This document shows positions 1 to 49,101 of a DNA stretch of 57,781 nt, one piece after another (position 1 is the first letter of the stretch; each line of letters opens with the position of its first letter). The DNA lies in contig JABDMW010000045.1 of the NCBI GenBank assembly GCA_013001295.1, positions 1 through 57,781 on the forward strand. Reading direction: 5' to 3'. The position numbers were made by a program, and so were the translations under genes. This DNA comes from Hyphomonadaceae bacterium (lineage in GTDB: Bacteria > Pseudomonadota > Alphaproteobacteria > Caulobacterales > Maricaulaceae). The notes under the pieces are model-generated. The model was not told the DNA's origin and made no database searches. It worked only from the letters and a program-made list of their open reading frames with translations.

Positions 1-1438
1 CCTCTGCAACCTCTCCGGTCGATACATTCTCTGCCTTCCACCGGAATGTATCGCCAATCCGGTCGACAAAATAACAATAATCACGCGCGTCGCGGCGCAT
101 GAGATCGCCTGTCCTAAACCATTTATCACCCTTTTTAAAAACGTCATGCAGCACTTTCTTTTTGCTGGCATCTTTGCTCTCATAACCGTCATATTTAAAA
201 CGGGTTTCTCCGGGTCGGATTTCACCGATCAATTCACCGACTTCGTCCGGCGCGGTTTTTATATAGAACCCGTCTGCGTTTTTTGGATGTGTCCCGCTTT
301 CTACATCATAACGAATGATGTCCCCGTTGATTTTATTTTTCAAAAATTTGGGGAGCCGCCCAACTGCGCCGACCGGCCCACCCGTGTTGATAAGACTGAT
401 ATTGCCTTCGGTCGCCCCATAAAATTCTACGACCTGCGGAATATTAAACCGTTTCACGAATTTGGCCCAAACGTCCGGTCGCAACCCGTTGCCGACAATA
501 CACCGTATTGTATGGGCTCTTTCTTTTTTATGCTCGGGTGCATTAAGCAGGAACCGGCAAAGCTCACCCACATACATCATCATGGTCGCTTTATATTCAA
601 CCGCTTCATCCCAAAAACTCGAGACTGAAAACTTAGAGCGCACAATCACAGCCCCGCCATTGCTCAATGCAATCCCGACACCGCAAAGACCGCCGGTGGC
701 ATGATACAGCGGCAAGACCATAATAATCCTGTCCTCGGGCGTCGATTTGCTGGCCATGGCAAACCCGCGCAAATAATATTGTGCCCGTGTGTGTGTCACT
801 TTTGCGGCCTTGGGCAAACCGGTTGTTCCCGACGTGAACATTTTCATCAAAAGATCGCCGGCACGAATTTCAGCCCGGATCGATTTGTCAGGGCGGTGGT
901 CTTTTTGCACCTCGATACCCGCATCAAAATTCCCGAACCCTTTCGGGGGTTTTCCAAATGCGGCAAACGCCTTCGGCTGGGTTTCCATCTGGTCTTGGGC
1001 ACTTTTCCACGCATCTAGCAATTCAATATCAACGATAGCGAGCTTCGTAGTTGAGATATTAATACAATGGGCCAGAGATTTTGCCCGAAGTTGGAAATTG
1101 ATCAAAGCCGGGATGAGACCAACTTTTGACAATCCATACCAAATCGCCACATATTCAAGCCGATTGCGCACGAATACGGCGACGGTATCTCCAACCTCGC
1201 CACCCTCGCTGACCGCCCAATGGGCGACTTTGTTGGCATATGCATCGAAATCACCATAACTCCATTCACGGTCATCTTCAATAAATGCCAGATTTGAGCG
1301 ATATTTATCAACGGCAGATTCAAAATCATCCGTGACCAGATTGGGTGAGTTGGAATTGATGTCTTCAACGCCTTTCAGCATTCTTTTTGCCGTCAGCAAA
1401 AAATCAATGTCTTCTTTCAAGTTTGACAAAAATCCCAT
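1..1438 (-). CDS. Long-chain/very-long-chain acyl-CoA synthetase (FATP-like), partial
   Basis: The reading frame starts at ATG 1438 (MGFLSNLKEDIDFL) and stays open to the left edge, so about 479 N-terminal residues are visible and the C-terminus lies outside. It is an adenylate-forming enzyme that should activate fatty acids to acyl-CoA through an acyl-AMP. Around residues 200-215 it has the AMP/ATP-binding loop FTSGTTGLPKAAKVTH. Further on come VEFYGATEGN (the YGxTE core) and, near the visible end, WFRTGDLMRRD followed by FVDRIGDTFRWKAENVST. The last block is typical of the FATP/SLC27-like branch rather than of classical FadD. A terminator at 1518-1545 separates it from the genes upstream, so it probably has its own promoter. 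Substrate chain length cannot be read from the sequence. Confidence 0.85.
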   Translation of the reverse strand, partial: MGFLSNLKEDIDFLLTAKRMLKGVEDINSNSPNLVTDDFESAVDKYRSNLAFIEDDREWSYGDFDAYANKVAHWAVSEGGEVGDTVAVFVRNRLEYVAIWYGLSKVGLIPALINFQLRAKSLAHCINISTTKLAIVDIELLDAWKSAQDQMETQPKAFAAFGKPPKGFGNFDAGIEVQKDHRPDKSIRAEIRAGDLLMKMFTSGTTGLPKAAKVTHTRAQYYLRGFAMASKSTPEDRIIMVLPLYHATGGLCGVGIALSNGGAVIVRSKFSVSSFWDEAVEYKATMMMYVGELCRFLLNAPEHKKERAHTIRCIVGNGLRPDVWAKFVKRFNIPQVVEFYGATEGNISLINTGGPVGAVGRLPKFLKNKINGDIIRYDVESGTHPKNADGFYIKTAPDEVGELIGEIRPGETRFKYDGYESKDASKKKVLHDVFKKGDKWFRTGDLMRRDARDYCYFVDRIGDTFRWKAENVSTGEVAE

Positions 1439-1517
1439 GGATTCCCCATCCTTAAGTCTGCAGTAGAATAAGAATTGCTTTAACAGGGTCAAGCAAAGCC
1501 CGTCGACGGTTTATTTC

Positions 1518-1545
1518 AAAAAAATGCTCTCCTGGGAGGGAGAGC
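1518..1545 (-). terminator. Rho-independent terminator
   Basis: On the minus strand a perfect 7-bp stem GCTCTCC/GGAGAGC (1545-1539 with 1532-1526) encloses the 6-nt loop CTCCCA and is followed by ATTTTTTT. It ends transcripts coming from the lipoprotein gene at 1765-3165 or from the sigma54 promoter at 1630-1645, before the acyl-CoA synthetase starts. Confidence 0.85.
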
Positions 1546-1619
1546 GAGGGTAGGGAATAATTGAGCGGGAATTCCGTGGGAGAATTCCCGCTCTTGATCT
1601 GTGGGAGCAGTTCAATTGA
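1518..1619 (-). ncRNA. Candidate sigma54-dependent small RNA (~100 nt)
   Basis: This is the interval between the predicted start site of the sigma54 promoter at 1630-1645 (start near 1619) and the terminator U-run at 1518. It has no ATG. It can form a perfect 12-bp hairpin (arms 1563-1574 and 1582-1593, 7-nt loop) and the terminator hairpin. The motif CUCCCA occurs three times: in the single-stranded 5' part (1607-1602), across the first hairpin loop (1582-1577) and exactly as the terminator loop (1538-1533). Such C-rich loops are complementary to GGGAG-type Shine-Dalgarno sequences, as in the UCCC loops of the Listeria LhrC family. Promoter, structure and terminator are seen; that a regulatory RNA is made is inferred. 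Confidence 0.55.
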
Positions 1620-1629
1620 TAATTATAAA

Positions 1630-1645
1630 TGCAATCAGCGTGCCA
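1630..1645 (-). promoter_or_regulatory. Sigma54 (-24/-12) promoter
   Basis: The minus strand reads TGGCACG-CTGA-TTGCA, an exact match to the RpoN consensus TGGCACG-N4-TTGCW. Transcription would start about 12 nt past the -12 C, near 1619. The flank TAATTCAAAAC directly upstream is nearly identical to the flank of the psp promoter at 46257-46272. It lies downstream of the lipoprotein gene, so its product would be the candidate small RNA. Confidence 0.7.
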
Positions 1646-1706: not shown

Positions 1707-1723
1707 TGTTTCAATTCGAAACA
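1707..1723 (-). promoter_or_regulatory. Inverted repeat, possible upstream activator site
   Basis: TGTTTC and GAAACA form a perfect inverted repeat with a 5-nt centre. It lies about 88-104 nt upstream of the predicted start at 1619, the usual distance for an enhancer bound by a sigma54 activator. The activator is unknown, and this palindrome is not found upstream of the psp promoter. Confidence 0.35.
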
Positions 1724-1764
1724 AATGTCACGTTTTAGGACAGACCAACCGGTCGGCTCGCTGA

Positions 1765-3165
1765 TTATTCACCACCATAAATGATGGGCGTTCCAGCAGA
1801 CCGTTCAGGTTTTGGTACCTGATCGGCGCTTTTTGGCGGAATTACTGACGGTGTTATCCGTTTCCCGTCGGGTGAATATGCCGCGAGCAAAAATCCTGAA
1901 ATGTAATTCGGAGGCAACGCAATTGTTTCTTCAATACCGTTGCGCGGTTTAACATAGAGTAGGAGTCCGTTTTTCTCAGCCGCCAACAAACGTTCGCGCG
2001 GAATGAATACCCGCAGGCTTTCCTGACGCTGGCAACTATAGCTGACTTGATAATCCGTATACCCTGGATCATACCTTCGGCTGTAAGGATCATACCGCAT
2101 TTGCATATTGACCTTTTCGCGGGCCCGGGTGCGAGAATTGTTAGTCTTTTTAAAAGCCCTGTCGGTCGCTCGAGACGTATTTTTAGGCCTGCTTGTTTGC
2201 CGTTTGGCCGGAGGTGGGGGCGGCGGTGGAGCCGGCCTTGATACAGGCGCAGCTTTCGGCGGATTTGGTCGAGACGCCGGCATAGATCTAACGGCCCTGT
2301 TTTGTTGAGCCATATCCGCTTTAATCGTTGAACTCGGTGCGCGTCGGCGCGGTTGCTTTTTCGATGGCGGAATTGTTGACCCGCCCGTTAAAACCCGATC
2401 TCCGCGTCTTGGTGTTGAACGATCCGGATCTCTTTCTACAGGGACACGGCTTTGATCATCGGTCAGGTCCCGGCGCACTACACCTCCACGCCTTGTACCC
2501 GTTGGAATATGTACAGTTTGGCCGTTATCACCTGATACGCCGTCATCACTATGCCGATCGCCGCGCTGATCGTCATTATCGCTGTCATGACGGTCGCCAC
2601 CGCGACGGCCATATCGGTCATTGTACCTCCCGTAGTGACCGCGTCGTCCGTACCCATACCCGCCATAACCGCGCCTGCCATATTGCCCATAATGACCGCC
2701 GTAATGCCCATACCCTGTGTAACCGATGGGAACACGGTAGATATCACGAACATCTTCACGACAATCCAAAACGGTTGCGCCATAATCAACAAGATCCGCG
2801 ATTTCACCGCCGGCCCAATTGACTTGATCAAAGTAGAGCGCGCCTTCAGGGTCAGGCGTCGCTGTGACATAATTCAAAATGATTTCCAGATAGGCACCGT
2901 CATGGTGCACTACATTGTTGCTGTCCGTGAAAGGACCAGCGGTACGCAATTGAACCTGACCGTTGATGGAGGTTCTATTAGACGAGAACGCCTTGATTTG
3001 CGGTGCAAGCACTTCACTGACACCGCTATAGCTATCCGTGCGCTGGAGAGAATCGGAAGCAATATCAAGTGGACTTCGCTCCATTATACTGGTCGAACAT
3101 CCCAGCAACAAAGCGGTTGTGGAAATCGAGAGCAATAATTTTGTACTAAATCGAGAATTCACCAT
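1765..3165 (-). CDS. Putative lipoprotein with Tyr/Gly-rich and Pro-rich low-complexity regions
   Basis: The 466-residue protein begins with a signal peptide ending in a lipobox (LLLGC, Cys about residue 23), so it should be lipid-anchored in the envelope. Residues ~30-145 look like a folded domain. Then comes a striking low-complexity stretch (GYGHYGGHYGQYGRRGYGGY and onward, ~150-185), an Asp/His/Arg-rich run, and a Pro/Arg-rich linker containing PPPPPP (~270-340). The last ~110 residues look folded again (LRVFIPRERLLAAEKNGLLL, TIALPPNYISGFL). I do not recognise a family. It starts at ATG 3165 and lies 69 nt downstream of the stop of the spermidine-synthase-like gene on the same strand. Function unknown; a structural or scaffolding envelope role would be a guess. 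Confidence 0.7.
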   Translation of the reverse strand: MVNSRFSTKLLLSISTTALLLGCSTSIMERSPLDIASDSLQRTDSYSGVSEVLAPQIKAFSSNRTSINGQVQLRTAGPFTDSNNVVHHDGAYLEIILNYVTATPDPEGALYFDQVNWAGGEIADLVDYGATVLDCREDVRDIYRVPIGYTGYGHYGGHYGQYGRRGYGGYGYGRRGHYGRYNDRYGRRGGDRHDSDNDDQRGDRHSDDGVSGDNGQTVHIPTGTRRGGVVRRDLTDDQSRVPVERDPDRSTPRRGDRVLTGGSTIPPSKKQPRRRAPSSTIKADMAQQNRAVRSMPASRPNPPKAAPVSRPAPPPPPPPAKRQTSRPKNTSRATDRAFKKTNNSRTRAREKVNMQMRYDPYSRRYDPGYTDYQVSYSCQRQESLRVFIPRERLLAAEKNGLLLYVKPRNGIEETIALPPNYISGFLLAAYSPDGKRITPSVIPPKSADQVPKPERSAGTPIIYGGE

Positions 3166-3234: not shown

Positions 3235-6200
3235 TTAAGGTTGGGTGGTTCCGTCTGATGTTTTCGATCCAACTTGCGTTGACGACACATGTTCTAATCT
3301 CGACTTCAACACATTAACCCGCTCCTCAAGTGTCGGATCCGTAACCCTGGAGAGCAGTTGTGCAAATTCCGGCAAATATGACTGTTTTTTTGTGTCTCCG
3401 CCACCTCCGGTCACGTTCAAATTATTTCGGCTGAAAACGATTTGCCAAATCGAATTCAGAACCCGGTCACTATCTTGAAGCCGGTCCGCCAATTTCGCGC
3501 GCAAAATCAACTTTTCCGCTGTCGGTTCGACAAGATGCGATCGCTCAATTAAAGCGATCGCTTTTTCCAACCCCTCTTGATCTTTCAACAACTCAAACCG
3601 CGATCGTGCTCGAAGATAAAGGGCTTGTCCTGCATAAGATCGTGTGACCGGGACCTGGGTCAAGGCTTCATCCTGGTCAAATATGGTTTGCCAATCGCCT
3701 TTTTTGGCCGCTTCACTTAAAATGAACACGGTGGCCAGATCCCTATTTTGAACATTGCCAATAATATCGTCAGTATTTAAGTCAGGATTATCAAGTATCT
3801 CATAATTGGCGATGAAAACAGCGTCGGGATTATCGACTATATTCTGGAAGGCCAAATTGACCGCTTGTTGTGCAGCAAACTTATCCCCGCTTGCCTTATA
3901 AATGATAGCCTGCGCCAATCTCCGGTATTCTTCCGTATCCAGCGTATTCATCACATCCAAGGCCCGGTTCGGCATTCCTAATCGGACCAATGAGCCAAGA
4001 ATATATAGAGCCCGCTCTTTGGGCATGTCCCGTACTTTGAGAGTATTATTATGGATGAGTGGATCGAAGGGCTTTAAAATATTCATCAAAGCGTAAAACT
4101 TCAAACCGTCCCCGTATTGCCGACTAAGAACTGCGAGCTGATTTTGGTTGTCTCGGATAATCTTGCCAGTCCTAGCGAAACTAGTGGTGCCATTTTCATC
4201 CAAAACAATCGCGGCGAGGATATCATTGAAACTGTTGACGCCTATCGAGGCAAATAATTGCTGCTCTTTGGAAATAATTTTGCCAACTGTCGGGAGGTCA
4301 CTTTCAATGTCTAAGGGCGAATTTGATGCGTAAAAATGCAGAGCATTCCGCTGTGCTTGCACCATCCGCACATATCTAAATTCGGAGAGGAGCGTCGCGG
4401 TCAAATCGCGCAATAATGTCTCGGTAACGAATTCAGCGTTGATCCATTGCAGAAAAACTCCCTCACGATTAAGATGCCGCCTGACGAGTTTCATATATTC
4501 TTTGGTAAACAGATGCGACGCGCCAGCTGTCCACGGATGAGACGGTTGCGAAACGATGATATCGAACTTCTTGTTGCTCAATTTCAATGCATTTCGGGCG
4601 TCATTGAAGACAATATTGATCCTCGGGTCCTTTAATGGGTCTTGCATCCGCAAATGGGCTGTTACCCGGTTTGCCTCGATAACTTCGGGTTCTAATTCAA
4701 CAACATCAACACTTTCAATGTGTTGAGGAATTGCTTCCAACACGGCACCACCGCCATAGCCAACGACCAGCATACTCTTTGCATCCGGGCGGAAAAGTGG
4801 CGGGATAGCGCCAAGCCACTGTTGAGACAGGATGGTGGGACCGGCGCCTTTGCGCATGACATTGGCTTCCGGCAATCCGTTAGAACGATAGAAAATTTCG
4901 TGAAATGACGACAAGCTTAAAACCGTCGAAGACCGTCCAACTGCAAAAAACTCTTCATTGGTCGCAGCTTGGCTATGACCGAAAAATGCATGTTTGATAA
5001 TGGCGTCTGGCCGACTGGGCCGCCACAGTACTGCACTGATACATAACGCAATCCCCAAAAGCGTCGAAAACCAGATTTGACTGCGCGGCAGTTGATAGAA
5101 GAAAACAATTAATCCGAGCGCCAAATTAGCGATCACGCACAGGACGATAGTACCTTCAAATCCCAAATTAGGAATGATCACAAACCCTGCGGCCAATGCC
5201 CCGATCACGGCGCCGCACGTGTTCCACATATAGATACGCGCAGCTTGGAGGCTGGATTGTTCGGCTGTGTCGGAGAGGATGCGCACAGCCAAGGGAAAGG
5301 TCATGCCAATAAAAATTGTTGCTGGCAACATGACAGAAAATGCGGTGATGGCATGGGTTTTGACAGACCGTATTCCAGGAACATTTTTCTCGAGATTGTA
5401 ATAAATATAAGCGGAAAAGATGGCGATCAATATTTGCGCTGCAATAAACAACCAACTCGCGCGCTTTTTACTGGTGGCCAATATGCCACCAATGAACCCG
5501 CCTAATGCTATTCCACTTAAAAAGGCGGCCAACATTGTGGCAAATGCAACGACACTGCCCCCGACAATATGTCCCAACATCCGCGTCCACAAAACTTCAT
5601 AAACGAATGAAATGATTCCGGATCCCAACATCACGCACAACATCCAATGCATTTTCTTAGGCACGATTTGCGCCATACCCAATTCGGATGTTCGCGGGCG
5701 CAGCATACGATCCTCAGAATCAATTCCTTGAGCGAGCGCAATGATAACGGCAATTAAATATATCAGGATGTTGACGACAACACCGAACCAAACCGTTCCC
5801 CGCATCCCGAGCGCCGGTAAAAATACAAATGCCGCAATTACTGTCCCAAAAACGGCGCCGATTGTGTTGATGGCGTAGAGCATTCCGGTTCGACTGCCTA
5901 TTTGTCGATCTGAATGGATAACTTGTCGCAGGAGGATGGGCAGCGTCGCTCCCATACAGGTGGTTGGAATCCCAAGAACGATAAATGAAGCGATAATGTA
6001 AAATCCGAGTTGTAAAAAACCGCCTGCATTTGGTAACTCAGCTTGTCCTCCAACAATTGCCGTTAGAGCAAAACCGGAAAACGTCATCAGAAGCGGAACG
6101 CACAAAGCAGAGACCGCAATCATGAGTTCCAGAATGCCGTAGGCAAAAATCGGACTGTGTATTCGGTCTAAATATCGTCCAGCGACCCAGGCGCCGAGCG

Positions 6201-6336
6201 CTAACCCGCCCATATAGGCCGCAAGAACAATTGTGACGGCGTATTCCGACGTGCCAAAAATGGTCGAAAACAGGCGCAACCAGGCCGTCTGGTAAAGCAG
6301 GGCCGCAAACCCTGAGAGCAAGAAACAAAGACACAC
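3235..6336 (-). CDS. Polytopic membrane protein with spermidine-synthase-like domain and TPR-like tail
   Basis: The product has at least 1033 residues. The N-terminal ~430 residues hold two blocks of about six to seven membrane helices with conserved starts (LLYQTAWLRLFSTIFGTS; FVYEVLWTRMLGHIVGGS), as in fused MFS/spermidine-synthase proteins. Residues ~475-680 form a Rossmann methyltransferase-like domain (LVVGYGGGAVLEAIP, VDVVELEPEVI, DIIVSQPSHPW) resembling polyamine synthases. The remaining ~350 residues look helical and TPR-like. Polyamine synthesis is not assured, since many such fusions have unknown substrates. The start is doubtful: GTG 6336 lies inside the first membrane helix, and the frame stays open and plausible up to 6441 with no ATG, GTG or TTG. 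A rare start codon or a frameshift upstream is likely. Confidence 0.75.
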   Translation of the reverse strand: MCLCFLLSGFAALLYQTAWLRLFSTIFGTSEYAVTIVLAAYMGGLALGAWVAGRYLDRIHSPIFAYGILELMIAVSALCVPLLMTFSGFALTAIVGGQAELPNAGGFLQLGFYIIASFIVLGIPTTCMGATLPILLRQVIHSDRQIGSRTGMLYAINTIGAVFGTVIAAFVFLPALGMRGTVWFGVVVNILIYLIAVIIALAQGIDSEDRMLRPRTSELGMAQIVPKKMHWMLCVMLGSGIISFVYEVLWTRMLGHIVGGSVVAFATMLAAFLSGIALGGFIGGILATSKKRASWLFIAAQILIAIFSAYIYYNLEKNVPGIRSVKTHAITAFSVMLPATIFIGMTFPLAVRILSDTAEQSSLQAARIYMWNTCGAVIGALAAGFVIIPNLGFEGTIVLCVIANLALGLIVFFYQLPRSQIWFSTLLGIALCISAVLWRPSRPDAIIKHAFFGHSQAATNEEFFAVGRSSTVLSLSSFHEIFYRSNGLPEANVMRKGAGPTILSQQWLGAIPPLFRPDAKSMLVVGYGGGAVLEAIPQHIESVDVVELEPEVIEANRVTAHLRMQDPLKDPRINIVFNDARNALKLSNKKFDIIVSQPSHPWTAGASHLFTKEYMKLVRRHLNREGVFLQWINAEFVTETLLRDLTATLLSEFRYVRMVQAQRNALHFYASNSPLDIESDLPTVGKIISKEQQLFASIGVNSFNDILAAIVLDENGTTSFARTGKIIRDNQNQLAVLSRQYGDGLKFYALMNILKPFDPLIHNNTLKVRDMPKERALYILGSLVRLGMPNRALDVMNTLDTEEYRRLAQAIIYKASGDKFAAQQAVNLAFQNIVDNPDAVFIANYEILDNPDLNTDDIIGNVQNRDLATVFILSEAAKKGDWQTIFDQDEALTQVPVTRSYAGQALYLRARSRFELLKDQEGLEKAIALIERSHLVEPTAEKLILRAKLADRLQDSDRVLNSIWQIVFSRNNLNVTGGGGDTKKQSYLPEFAQLLSRVTDPTLEERVNVLKSRLEHVSSTQVGSKTSDGTTQP

Positions 6337-30589: not shown

Positions 30590-31849
30590 TTAATGGGTAG
30601 TAAAAAACGATTTAATCAAGTAGTAGGTCGCGCCCAAAACAACCATCGCACCAACGATGGTTGCCACCGGTGCCAAAAAAGCACTTACCGGATCCAGTCC
30701 GCTTACGGGCCCGATAAACCATTTAAACACACCCCCGCCAAATAAGGATACTCCGATCAGTAAAGCTGCCCAGAACCCGCCTGAACCACCGAATTCTTGG
30801 TCAACTCCATTTACCGTCGTTTTTGATATATAGACATCAGGTGTGCGGATATCTGCCTGATAATCGCGCGTCGAGCGTTTGTATTCGTGATGCGTACCTT
30901 CATTCGCTGCTATTGGTAGATCTGGTTCTGAAACTGGAAACTGACCGGTCGCGTCATCAACGATGGCGACCTTTTCAGTTTTTAATTCCTCAACTCTGGT
31001 GTCAGGTGCGCTGTCTTCCAAATCCTGATTGACGGTTTCCGGTCTGTCAGCAATTAAAGCTTCCAGTCTCTCGCTGACCGCGGCAGCGGCAACAGCAATC
31101 GGCGAAAGTCCGTCAACGTTTTCAGGCAACGCCTCAGGCACATCTTGTGCCTCTTCATCTTGGTCGTCGTCAACGATTTCACTTAATGTCAAGGTCCCTG
31201 CAGGCCCGTCTTCGCGACGACGGTTTTGGGTCGGTGAAAAATCAATATCTTCTTTTGTTTGCGCCTCATACGGGGCACGGCCAACAATACCCTCTTCTGC
31301 ATATCGGCCATACACAGGCATTTGCTCTTCAGATTCAGAGATAATTTGATCCCGCGACGGCGGAATTTCATTGCGTGGAGCTGCGACAACGCCTTCAATT
31401 GGTCGTAAAAATAGGGCCTTTTCGGCTGTACGGCGGCGAACCAATGCATCAATCACATAGGTATTGCCATCAATGATGCTTTTGCGCCATTCGTCGAACG
31501 CGGCTGCAGCATCGAGAGGGCGCCCATTATTCATAGCATGCAGCACATTTGAGGACAAAAACGCCTTCGGTCCAATATTGTAGCTCAGTGAGACAAGGGC
31601 ATCGAATTGGCTTTGCGATAACGGCGCATATACAGACTCATTGATCATCGCCTCGTACGGTTCCAGGTCCGCAGACAACAACAATTCCGCCTTTTCCCGG
31701 CTAATCACGGGCTCTTCTTCGGGTGAATAGCGGTGACCGAATCCGATTACCCGTTGTCCCGAAACCAACGTCGTTTCAACGGGCCGAAACCCTTCATAGG
31801 CTTTAATAAGCTTCAAACCGAAGTCAGAAAGTTTAAACGCATGCGCCAT
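30590..31849 (-). CDS. Membrane-anchored GH24 lysozyme-like protein with degenerate active site
   Basis: From ATG 31849 the product has 419 residues. Residues ~1-160 are a phage-type lysozyme fold (KLIKAYEGFR with Glu19; VIGFGHRY; SQSQFDALVSLSYNIGPKAF; LVRRRTAEKALF). In active GH24 enzymes the Glu is followed by a Y-x-D and a T in a TIGYGH-type motif; here these places read TTL and VIGFGH, so the Asp and Thr are absent. A long acidic, probably disordered linker (~170-340) leads to two C-terminal membrane helices (~350-415). No signal peptide is seen. It may bind or remodel peptidoglycan; catalysis is doubtful. The preceding frame to 31915 is less plausible. Confidence 0.75.
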   Translation of the reverse strand: MAHAFKLSDFGLKLIKAYEGFRPVETTLVSGQRVIGFGHRYSPEEEPVISREKAELLLSADLEPYEAMINESVYAPLSQSQFDALVSLSYNIGPKAFLSSNVLHAMNNGRPLDAAAAFDEWRKSIIDGNTYVIDALVRRRTAEKALFLRPIEGVVAAPRNEIPPSRDQIISESEEQMPVYGRYAEEGIVGRAPYEAQTKEDIDFSPTQNRRREDGPAGTLTLSEIVDDDQDEEAQDVPEALPENVDGLSPIAVAAAAVSERLEALIADRPETVNQDLEDSAPDTRVEELKTEKVAIVDDATGQFPVSEPDLPIAANEGTHHEYKRSTRDYQADIRTPDVYISKTTVNGVDQEFGGSGGFWAALLIGVSLFGGGVFKWFIGPVSGLDPVSAFLAPVATIVGAMVVLGATYYLIKSFFTTH

Positions 31850-31942
31850 ATTTGTTCCATTACAATACACTATTCCAGCCAGAGACCGGTCACGAAGTGA
31901 AATTGCAATTCCCACGCCGAATTCGCGTAATTGAAGAAATTT

Positions 31943-45105: not shown

Positions 45106-45801
45106 CTATTTGGATGCGACTTTTTTGGCAGGCTTAGACGCCGGTTTTTTCAAAGTTGCTTTCAGGGCCGCTAATTCCTCTTCGACCGCTTCGTCAGCTT
45201 CAAGAGCTGCAAACTGGCTTTCCAGGCTTTGGCCACTTCCGAGATCGAAAGCTTCAACATGCGCTTCCAGCTCGTCCACTTTGCGCTCCATGCGCTCGTA
45301 ACGGGCCAACGCATCATCGACCTTGTTGGTGGTCATATGTGTGCGCATCTTGATTTGGTTCTTGGCCGTGGTGCCTCGCATCATCAATGCTTTGTGCTTG
45401 GCCTTGGCTTCATCCAATTTGGCTTGTAATTTCGCCAGATCAGCATCGGCCTTACCGACGGCTTCGTCAAGAATGTCAATTTCGCTACGGACAACTTCAG
45501 CCATTTGAAGGGCCTGTTGTTTAGCAGATACAGCGCCGCGTGCCAGATCTTCGCGATCTTTAGTCAGGGCCAGTTCAGCTTTTGCGCCCCACTCAGCAGC
45601 GCGCTCTTCATAAGCTTCTGCTTTGCGTTTAAGTTCTTTCTTTTCAGCGATATTGCTCGCTGCAGATGTCCGGACTTCAACAAGTGTGTCTTCCATTTCC
45701 TGGATGATCAGTCGTGCGATCTTTTCCGGATTTTCAGCTTTATCGATCATCGCGTTCAAGTTTGAATTGATGATATCGCCCATGCGTGAAAAAATTCCCA
45801 T
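45106..45801 (-). CDS. pspA: Phage shock protein A
   Basis: A 231-residue, almost fully helical coiled-coil protein: MGIFSRMGDIINSNLNAMIDKAENPEKIARLIIQEMEDTLVEVRTSAA is the PspA signature. PspA binds stressed membrane and stabilises it, and in the resting state holds PspF inactive. The C-terminal tail is rich in Ala/Lys (KKPASKPAKKVASK), beyond the usual PspA end. It is the third gene after the sigma54 promoter at 46257-46272, behind two small genes. Confidence 0.96.
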   Translation of the reverse strand: MGIFSRMGDIINSNLNAMIDKAENPEKIARLIIQEMEDTLVEVRTSAASNIAEKKELKRKAEAYEERAAEWGAKAELALTKDREDLARGAVSAKQQALQMAEVVRSEIDILDEAVGKADADLAKLQAKLDEAKAKHKALMMRGTTAKNQIKMRTHMTTNKVDDALARYERMERKVDELEAHVEAFDLGSGQSLESQFAALEADEAVEEELAALKATLKKPASKPAKKVASK

Positions 45802-45843
45802 TTTATTCTCCTATTTGCAGTGTTGGTTTAGATTGGGGTTAAG

Positions 45844-45999
45844 TTAAAAGATTGTTGCGATAATGTAGCCGGCGAGGAAGAAGCCCCAGCACTCGATTGG
45901 ACGGGTGCTGAGATATCTTACAAACCGCCAGAATTTCCCTTGCAGGCTCTGACGGTCCCGGATGCGGCTTTCAAAATCAAACTCGTCGTGGTTTGCCAT
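45844..45999 (-). CDS. 51-residue single-TM protein of psp operon (PspD-like position)
   Basis: This small gene encodes a soluble charged N-terminus (MANHDEFDFESRIRDRQSLQ) followed by GKFWRFVRYLSTRPIECWGFFLAGYIIATIF, with one membrane segment at the C-terminus. AGGAG lies nine bases before ATG 45999, and the TAA stop is 42 bp before pspA. It has the size and position of psp-associated small membrane proteins, but I cannot show homology to enterobacterial PspD. Real gene status rests on the ribosome site, the tight operon spacing and the membrane profile. Confidence 0.65.
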   Translation of the reverse strand: MANHDEFDFESRIRDRQSLQGKFWRFVRYLSTRPIECWGFFLAGYIIATIF

Positions 46000-46010
46000 C
46001 TTTGCCGCTC

Positions 46011-46160
46011 CTAAATGCCGAAGCCGCTGACAGATGGGCCAGCATTATAGTGTGACATTGCCAAAGCGCGACGACGACGGCGTAAGTGCCGAACCGGTGC
46101 GCTGGCGCCTGCGAAAGTGCGGGCTGTTGTGTTGTCAGTATCATTTGTACGATACGTCAT
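46011..46160 (-). CDS. 49-residue basic protein, first gene of psp operon
   Basis: ATG 46160 is preceded by AAGGAGAGAAACC, a strong ribosome site, and the frame encodes MTYRTNDTDNTTARTFAGAS then APVRHLRRRRRALAMSHYNAGPSVSGFGI. The RHLRRRRR run makes it very basic; no membrane segment is visible. The stop lies 11 bp before the next gene. Being the first cistron after the sigma54 promoter it would be strongly made in stress. No family recognised. Confidence 0.55.
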   Translation of the reverse strand: MTYRTNDTDNTTARTFAGASAPVRHLRRRRRALAMSHYNAGPSVSGFGI

Positions 46161-46256
46161 GGTTTCTCTCCTTTGTGTGGTCCCAAATCTAATCAAGAGA
46201 CCGATGATTTACTTCGCCACTTTTCCGGGGGGGATTGCGTGGCATGCCAACTTAAT

Positions 46257-46272
46257 TGCAACAGCCGTGCCA
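46257..46272 (-). promoter_or_regulatory. Sigma54 promoter of the psp operon
   Basis: The minus strand reads TGGCACG-GCTG-TTGCA, an exact RpoN consensus, with the expected start near 46246, about 85 nt before the first small gene. The divergent pspF encodes a sigma54 activator, as in enterobacterial psp. The AT-rich 130 bp between promoter and pspF would suit IHF binding and enhancer sites. Confidence 0.88.
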
Positions 46273-46388
46273 GTTTGGAATTAATTTTATATCTCATTGA
46301 TTTTAAACGTTTTTATTTTTATTTTTTAGCTATTCAAGAAATAAAATTAGCATTTTAGACTGTTTTTTAGTTTACATTGCCGCATATT

Positions 46389-46407
46389 TTTAGTATTTTT
46401 TACTAAA
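46389..46407. promoter_or_regulatory. Inverted repeat before pspF, possible PspF enhancer/autoregulatory site
   Basis: TTTAGTA and TACTAAA form a perfect inverted repeat with a 5-T spacer immediately before the pspF ATG and about 145 nt upstream of the psp start. Position suits both enhancer action and autorepression of pspF. AT-rich palindromes arise easily by chance, so support is weak. Confidence 0.3.
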
Positions 46408-46408
46408 T

Positions 46409-47422
46409 ATGGCAGCCATTCCACAACAACTCATCGGCCAAAGCCCGGCATGGCTGGCCACATTGGACCAGATATCCGGCTCGGCGGCGCTTGACCGCTC
46501 AATGTTGGTTATTGGGGAACGAGGTACCGGTAAGGAGCTGGTCGCAGCCCGCCTGCACTTTTTATCTCCTCGCTGGGAAAAAACCTATATTCCGGTGAAT
46601 TGTGCGGCTCTTTCCGACGAACTCCTGGACTCGGAATTATTCGGACATGAGCAAGGCGCATTTACAGGGGCATCCAAACGTCGTCTCGGCCGTTTTGAAC
46701 GTGCGGATGGCGGCACACTGTTCTTGGATGAAATCGCCACTGCCAGTGCCCGCGTCCAGGAAAAACTGCTGCGCGTGATCGAATACGGGGAATTTGAACG
46801 ACTTGGTGGTGATCAGACGCTGAAAGTGGATGTGCGCGTCATTGGCGCCACAAATGTGGATCTGCCCGCCGCGGTAAAAAAAGGCAATTTTCGCGCCGAT
46901 CTTTTGGACCGTCTGGCATTTGACGTCATCACCCTGCCGCCCCTTCGCATCCGAAAGTCAGACATTTTTCCGTTGGCCGAGCATTTTGGCCGCAAAATGG
47001 CAGTTGAGCTGGGCGAGGAAAGCTTTCCGGGCTTTGCTCCGGAAGTTATGGAGTTTATGGCCGATTATGATTGGCCCGGAAATGTGAGAGAGCTTAAGAA
47101 TGTTGCAGAACGGGCGGTTGGCCGCGCTTTTAATGATGAAGGCGGCCTTACGGCCCCGATCCGTCAGATCAATATTGATCCATTTGAAGCGCCGTGGCGT
47201 CTCACAAACGAGGACAAGCCCGACATACCTAAACCCATAAGCCCGGATACACCAGATATCCAGGGTACCGACTTTACGGAACGCACCCACGCTTTCGAAC
47301 TGTCTCTCGTGAAAGAAGCCCTTTCGCAATGTGAGAACCATCAGGGCCGTGCATCGAAATATCTCGGACTCACCTATCACCAATTCCGGGGGTTGCTGAG
47401 AAAGCACGGGTTACGGAAATAG
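46409..47422 (+). CDS. pspF: Psp operon transcriptional activator PspF (sigma54 enhancer-binding protein)
   Basis: A 337-residue AAA+ activator with no N-terminal receiver or sensor domain, as in PspF. Walker A GERGTGKELVA near residue 36, the sigma54-contacting loop ELFGHEQGAFTGASKRR near 80, Walker B GGTLFLDEI near 103, and WPGNVRELKNVAERAV near 220. The C-terminal Fis-type helix-turn-helix is HQGRASKYLGLTYHQFRGLLRKHGL. It should activate the divergent psp operon from upstream sites and be held in check by PspA. No Shine-Dalgarno precedes ATG 46409. Confidence 0.93.
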   Translation: MAAIPQQLIGQSPAWLATLDQISGSAALDRSMLVIGERGTGKELVAARLHFLSPRWEKTYIPVNCAALSDELLDSELFGHEQGAFTGASKRRLGRFERADGGTLFLDEIATASARVQEKLLRVIEYGEFERLGGDQTLKVDVRVIGATNVDLPAAVKKGNFRADLLDRLAFDVITLPPLRIRKSDIFPLAEHFGRKMAVELGEESFPGFAPEVMEFMADYDWPGNVRELKNVAERAVGRAFNDEGGLTAPIRQINIDPFEAPWRLTNEDKPDIPKPISPDTPDIQGTDFTERTHAFELSLVKEALSQCENHQGRASKYLGLTYHQFRGLLRKHGLRK

Positions 47423-48788: not shown

Positions 48789-48839
48789 GTTTACGTGTCC
48801 GCGTTTTCACCGCTTGCAAATCAATATTATCACGCGTAT

Positions 48840-49005
48840 TGCAGCCCATGTTGGTGCCCGAAAGGGCTTGATAGGGAAGCCGGTGTAAATCCGGCGCTGC
48901 TCCCGCAGCTGTAAGCGGCGAGGATCAAATACAGGCCACTGGAATTTCCGGGAAGGCATTTGATCCATTAGAGCCGTAAGTCAGAAGACCTGCCAGCACC
49001 GTCGC
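48840..49005 (+). ncRNA. Cobalamin (AdoCbl) riboswitch
   Basis: The leader contains the conserved elements in order: TTGGTGCCCGAAAGGGC, GATAGGGAAGCCGGTG, TAAATCCGGCGCTGCTCCCG, CAGCTGTAAGCGG, GGCCACTGG, and the B12 box GTCAGAAGACCTGCC at 48980-48994. It lies ~100 nt upstream of the TonB receptor gene; the intervening GCGCC/GGGCGC hairpin just before the GGAG site may be the expression platform. B12 would repress the uptake operon. End points are approximate. Confidence 0.93.
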
Positions 49006-49101
49006 CAGCGCGGCTCGGGCGGGATGCACCGAAACGCATGGATTTATCCAATGACGACATTTGTTTGAAACGCGCCTTTGGGCGCAAAATGGAGTCGTTT
49101 G

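Follow-up and report, generated by a model that had tools for sequence, protein, structure and literature searches.

What is made from the exact sigma-54 promoter that lies near the left end of the window (the whole stretch of 57,781 nt analysed here), which activator would switch that promoter on, and would its product act on distant mRNAs or on the gene beside it? The original prediction for this DNA proposed a sigma-54-dependent small RNA carrying the motif CUCCCA three times.

The promoter, the RNA and its relatives

On the minus strand, positions 1645-1630 read TGGCACG-CTGA-TTGCA, as originally proposed, and the form TGGCA[C/T]-N5-TTGCA is found in 10/10 loci. The sigma-54 consensus is given as TGGCACN5-7TTGCT in excerpts of PMC12316311, and a -24/-12 element of this published type stands at conserved spacing in each of the ten. 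The predicted +1, taken 12 nt on from the GC element, falls near 1619, in agreement with the start proposed before. The exact pattern TGGCACGN4TTGC occurs six times in the 3.49-Mb genome: judged by eye from their flanks, three occurrences lie ahead of genes (the sRNA, staR and pspA) and three apparently inside genes.

Table 1. Features at and around the small RNA gene (positions in the window)
Feature	Position	Strand	Basis or remark
Long-chain acyl-CoA synthetase gene, cut by the window start	2..1438	-	PF00501; neighbour in 10/10 loci
Sigma-70-like promoter of the downstream gene, TTGACC-N16-TATTCT	1465..1492	-	pattern match to a similar element in G008 and 7/10 sRNA loci
SL3, intrinsic terminator with T7	1518..1545	-	stem 1545-1526; mean pairwise identity 60.5% (ten genomes)
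Small RNA, ~102 nt	1518..1619	-	both ends predicted
SL2, hairpin of variable sequence	1563..1593	-	folding, alignment; mean pairwise identity 52% (ten genomes)
SL1, conserved 5' hairpin	1594..1615	-	loop CUCCCA at 1607-1602; mean pairwise identity 92%, loop 100% (ten genomes)
Sigma-54 promoter, TGGCACG-CTGA-TTGCA	1630..1645	-	conserved in 10/10 loci; distance to CTGCTCCCACAG 34-35 nt
Upstream palindrome 2 (proximal), TGTTTCGAATTGAAACA	1707..1723	-	score 19.24; the TGG of the -24 element follows 78 nt downstream
Upstream palindrome 1 (distal), TacA-type operator candidate	1726..1742	-	staR-trained motif score 13.07

The predicted transcript folds far more stably than its shuffles: its energy is -39.8 kcal/mol, where 200 dinucleotide shuffles give -18.3 (sd 3.0; z -7.1). 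The 12-bp hairpin and the terminator with T7 of the original prediction are both present by sequence and folding: the former (SL2, 1593-1563) has a U-G closing pair in addition, and the latter has CUCCCA as its loop, its stem being followed by A and then by seven T up to 1518. The count of three CUCCCA also holds for this genome, where 1/5000 dinucleotide shuffles of the RNA reaches three copies and 0/5000 exceed them, but the repetition is not conserved (three copies in the source genome, two in G011, one in each of the other eight). The placing of the copies needs correction as well. The first, assigned before to a 5' single strand, caps a small conserved hairpin, SL1 (1615-1594), as its apical loop, and the copy ascribed to the loop of the 12-bp hairpin is indeed in SL2, but with its first C paired. 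It is the 5'-most copy that is kept in 10/10 genomes, as the loop of SL1.

Ten of 14 genus genomes (Robiginitomaculum-type MAGs) carry the promoter, SL1 and the terminator at fixed spacing. The search of relatives for the promoter-hairpin-terminator unit, proposed with the original prediction as a check, thus returned ten true loci, and the predicted sigma-54-dependent small RNA gene is supported by it: RNA and promoter are conserved together in these 10/14 genomes, with the C-rich loop as the most conserved feature. Predicted transcript length varies from 61 to 107 nt across the family, and the linker (42% mean pairwise identity) is less alike than any of the three hairpins (Table 1).

The family was delimited by several searches. 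First, blastn found relatives in 7/13 other genomes of the same genus and in 0/47 other genomes. Second, a covariance model built from eight sequences was run over 137 family genomes with stricter filters, at which weak matches are lost; it gave 25 rows in 21 genomes, ten of them true, and the remaining 15 were judged by eye to be bare terminator hairpins that lack SL1 and the promoter. Among 385 evenly drawn genomes of the class, the covariance search matched only the source genome. Third, an exact-pattern scan of a named contig collection gave ten stretches (eight from Robiginitomaculum sp., one from an Alphaproteobacteria bacterium and one from Pseudomonas cedrina); the Pseudomonas cedrina match was taken as chance because it has neither the hairpins nor the flanking gene, and one viral-contig match was likewise taken as chance. 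More diverged relatives elsewhere could have slipped through these searches. The sigma factor itself (rpoN, PF04552) is present in 13/14 genus genomes; G007 carries the RNA, yet its assembly (94% complete) yielded no rpoN. At gathering score, Rfam has no match to the sRNA unit in the window or in five relatives; sX13 (RF02232) reaches 18.3 bits against a gathering score of 50, and other weak Rfam matches are likewise far under cut-off.

Structural support differs between the whole RNA and its first hairpin. For a model-fitted alignment of 11 distinct rows (the ten true loci and the remnant locus of G008, discussed below), which leans towards its model, 0/500 shuffles reach any of five measures, and the hairpins retain their pairing through two-sided changes. 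SL1 alone was tested on a sequence-only alignment of the ten true rows, the G008 remnant being left out: the covariation score is reached by 1/500 shuffles, the number of pairs with changes in both partners by 16/500 and the number of pair types by 136/500. Five of its eight pairs are invariant, one pair is unpaired in 9/10, and a slide of +3 scores 0.086 against 0.089 for the true register. Covariation is therefore thin, and SL1 is conserved mainly as sequence. In G013 its stem is 7 bp long without interruption and carries the same loop, and in G002 it is open in the best fold. A coding function for this part was rejected: G013 lacks the ATG or TTG at which the frame in SL1 opens in the others, and the pairing is retained there.

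Other features of the window include a 466-aa Arg/Gly-rich ORF (1765-3165, minus strand) with no Pfam or NCBIfam match, of which G005 alone, among 13 oriented loci, has a homologue upstream of the sRNA; a 1033-aa fused MFS/spermidine synthase (3235-6336, minus strand); and a cobalamin riboswitch (48835-49011, plus strand; 122.7 bits).

The upstream operator and its activator

Sigma-54 promoters require an enhancer-binding activator. The original prediction missed the palindromes upstream of the promoter, which are common to staR and spmX and point to the activator TacA. Palindromes of 17 bp precede the sRNA promoters, mostly 76-119 bp upstream; five of the ten loci have two of them, 19 bp apart, the second being weak (7.6, 9.1) in two of these five.

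The helix-turn-helix gene behind one of the exact promoters of the source genome is presumably staR. Close orthologues of it (76-91% identical) with TGGCAC-N5-TTGCTC promoters occur in 13 genus genomes, the source genome included. A motif trained on these 13 upstream regions only, leaving out staR-like genes that are about 40% identical (L100-L114), reads TGTnCCAAnTTGGnACA, and it recurs upstream of the sRNA promoter in 10/10 loci. In nine of them it scores 15.4-20.8 within 220 nt of the promoter, a usual distance for an enhancer; in the tenth (G004) a pair lies at -374/-355, with scores of 16.4/13.5. The background, 302,527 bases of other genus sequence that was not limited to intergenic DNA and from which the sRNA-operator loci L056-L059 were excluded, holds three sites of at least 15, two of at least 16 and none of at least 17, and one of these sites is that of spmX at window position 31853. 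We take the lysozyme-domain gene in the window to be spmX. The set compared comprised 14 loci, after two lysozymes of G001 (L115, L129; 271 and 283 aa) had been dropped: the motif scores at least 13 in 11/14, and the remaining three have 8.5-10.6 at the corresponding position. A scan of 14 genomes for the palindrome and promoter pattern combined gave six rows in four genomes, five of which belong to sRNA promoters; the sixth is at another place in G005. Judged by these motif matches, the sRNA operator is common to staR and spmX. The spmX-like gene of the window (31421-31869, minus strand) and loci L116-L128 and L130 have the palindrome directly ahead of the start codon, downstream of a sigma-54-like element, which is an unusual position for an enhancer site.

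Sigma54_activat matches and sequence reading leave four enhancer-binding proteins in the source genome. One is PspF, which is above its equivalog cut-off and is encoded in the window: in the stretch 45106-47422, pspF (46409-47422, plus strand) faces a sigma-54 promoter (46272-46258, minus strand), downstream of which, on its own strand, lie first a short Arg-rich ORF (within 46011-46196) and then pspA (45106-45801). Two adjacent proteins, both on contig C55, we take to be NtrC and NtrX. The fourth, on contig C8, has receiver, AAA and Fis-type domains and the sequence GSFTGA, and is the sole receiver-domain activator with a sigma-54-contact loop. No TacA model is among the matches listed for it, nor does the protein end in Ala-Gly as Caulobacter TacA is reported to. 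Caulobacter has four activators, NtrC, NtrX, FlbD and TacA, of which, in excerpts of PMC10274813, only FlbD and TacA have GAFTGA; TacA drives staR and spmX there, as described in part of PMC7010744.

Could a different activator be at work? If the C8 protein had an FlbD- or NtrC-like role, or if PspF acted here, the RNA would answer to nutrient, flagellar or envelope signals and not to stalk development. This is unlikely, even though ntrC is the best NCBIfam match of the C8 protein (427.7, under its cut-off of 558.6) and PspF is encoded in the same window. Against PspF, the staR-trained motif is absent from the pspA promoter; against the C55 proteins, neither has a GAFTGA-like loop in its sequence; against FlbD, its model gives the C8 protein 354.2 of the 750 demanded; and the operator is the one that staR and spmX have in common. 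Because PspF, the C55 proteins and FlbD can be set aside in this way, TacA is the likeliest activator, identified by exclusion and from sequence. The C8 activator gene is itself preceded, at a distance of about 50 nt, by the same palindrome (16.06; L066, about 2487-2503; source genome only), which suggests autoregulation.

The neighbouring enzyme gene and the possible targets

The reading that we favour, with a probability of about 0.55, is a trans-acting sRNA under TacA/sigma-54 control, a genus-level family whose CUCCCA loop pairs with UGGGAG-type start regions. Comparison between genomes shows the RNA gene, its promoter, its structure and the sharing of its operator; TacA as activator, the cell-cycle timing and the pairing mechanism are what we infer. 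A TacA-type response regulator would bind one or two of the 17-bp palindromes and switch on sigma-54 polymerase, giving a transcript in which a conserved 5' hairpin displaying CUCCCA is followed by a second, variable hairpin and by a terminator. The loop, which is complementary to UGGGAG, would seed on UGGGAG-type translation starts of mRNAs and reduce their translation, and this action would coincide with the cell-cycle stage at which TacA is active (the swarmer-to-stalked transition).

The gene next to the RNA offers another function, that of a terminated 5' leader of the acyl-CoA synthetase mRNA with conditional sigma-54 read-through, the RNA acting in cis. The same enzyme gene (in the window, best NCBIfam match PRK08279 long-chain-acyl-CoA synthetase, under cut-off on the cut protein) is next downstream on the same strand in 10/10 loci, and G001, G010 and G012 (assemblies 90%, 83% and 92% complete), which lack the RNA, have no close enzyme homologue at E 1e-100 either. 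Three observations nevertheless make a leader quite improbable: a terminator with a T run lies between sRNA and enzyme gene in 10/10 loci; a sigma-70-like promoter stands, by pattern, ahead of the enzyme gene in 7/10 (Table 1); and G008 (L057, L079) retains the enzyme gene and the sigma-70-like promoter, along with a degraded second hairpin and terminator (21.8 bits), at a locus where no sigma-54 promoter, SL1 or palindrome was found. From its sequence, the G008 locus is a remnant, a natural loss in which promoter, SL1 and palindrome appear to have gone together.

For the trans-acting sRNA that we favour, target mRNAs were sought with two pattern scans of 14 genomes, TGTGGGAG-N2-12-ATG (95 rows) and TGGGAGCA-N0-12-ATG (141 rows). 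The rows used came to 60 automatic loci (14 genomes) and 123 hand-taken stretches (the ten sRNA-bearing genomes); left out were nested duplicates, matches antisense to the sRNA itself and, for the four sRNA-less genomes, the rows beyond the automatic loci. Among the resulting 71 ORFs there were four clusters (one in four genomes, one in three and two in two), of which the largest is the start of ribosomal protein L3, in four genomes that include the sRNA-less G008; no convincing conserved target was found among these ORFs. Pairing with the staR 5' UTR, computed in ten genomes, was no better than with shuffles (fractions 0.12 to 0.995).

These scans, which gave no mRNA target, and the SL1 stem sequence, which is conserved in addition to the loop, would also suit a protein-binding or sponge RNA, in which a protein or another RNA binds SL1 and no mRNA is seeded. 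We consider this as improbable as the leader: the CUCCCA loops of the AbcR RNAs have a documented role in regulating mRNAs, according to excerpts of PMC5461406. Given the C-rich loops of AbcR (motif M1), LhrC and CcnA, seed pairing with G-rich start regions is the likeliest mechanism by analogy. That there is no functional RNA at all, and that a chance promoter merely stands beside a stray terminator, is a reading with next to no probability left, rejected on the fixed spacing in 10 loci, where promoter, SL1 and terminator are conserved and the hairpins show paired changes.

Known systems and what the RNA may mean

The original prediction knew of no described family with this layout, which needs qualifying in two respects: the AbcR RNAs have CUCCCA in their first hairpin as motif M1 (PMC5461406, in part), and CUCCC at three places is a feature of LhrC (PMC4132741, in part). 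AbcR1 and AbcR2 of the Rhizobiales are alphaproteobacterial, as is the RNA here, and are described as acting by negative regulation via six-base motifs (PMC5461406). CUCCCA lies in the first hairpin loop in 10/10 of our loci. AbcR motif M2, GUUCCC between SL1 and SL2, is by eye absent from the ten aligned sequences, and AbcR is not named among the weak Rfam matches. In the portions available of the AbcR study, mutation showed M1 and M2 to be needed for regulation, though no more than one target was reported to rely on M1 by itself, and the AbcR genes adjoin a LysR-type regulator gene in plant-associated species (PMC5461406), whereas the promoter here is of the sigma-54 type. In LhrC of Listeria, the three CUCCC lie in a loop, a single strand and the terminator loop (PMC4132741, in part). 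The threefold motif is found here in the source genome only, and no membership is claimed.

Two rhizobial RNAs, SmelA075 and SmelA099, presumably of the cuckoo type, also resemble the present RNA. They have C-rich anti-Shine-Dalgarno loops which are repeated, but the loop is CCUCCUCCC in three or four hairpins, as given in part of PMC3927594, and not CUCCCA in one conserved hairpin. CcnA of Caulobacter, likewise a stalked alphaproteobacterial host, shares a C-rich loop and is a cell-cycle RNA acting on G-rich 5' UTRs; it differs in that the loop is CCCC, expression is presumed to be CtrA-dependent and the proposed effect is activation of ctrA, with raised CtrA (PMC8959179, in part).

The system that the locus resembles in its control is the TacA/sigma-54 regulon of Caulobacter, the operator being common to the sRNA and the genus homologues of staR and spmX and the sigma-54 promoter being like that at staR. 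Qrr, GlmY and CrcZ are trans-acting sRNAs made from enhancer-activated sigma-54 promoters, with other activators, hosts and sequences. The members of the TacA/sigma-54 regulon named in excerpts of PMC7010744 and PMC10274813 are protein genes, and in the part available of a study of Caulobacter cell-cycle ncRNAs tacA is named only as a predicted target (PMC5988900). Among the matches listed from the open-access literature there is no TacA-controlled sRNA and no sigma-54-controlled sRNA of Caulobacterales/Maricaulales. The parts are thus of known kinds, and their combination with a TacA-type operator is, as far as we can tell, new.

TacA and sigma-54 time stalk formation in Caulobacter. With the same kind of operator as staR and spmX, the sRNA, which is confined in these searches to a single genus of marine bacteria, may therefore belong to the programme by which swimming cells become attached ones. 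Tentatively, and with the odds slightly against it, the TacA pathway would have a riboregulatory arm, in which a pulse of sRNA at the swarmer-to-stalked transition silences mRNAs with G-rich starts through an AbcR-like loop. If this is true, post-transcriptional control would be added to a textbook circuit of cell differentiation, and the C-rich seed of the AbcR RNAs would have come under quite different control.
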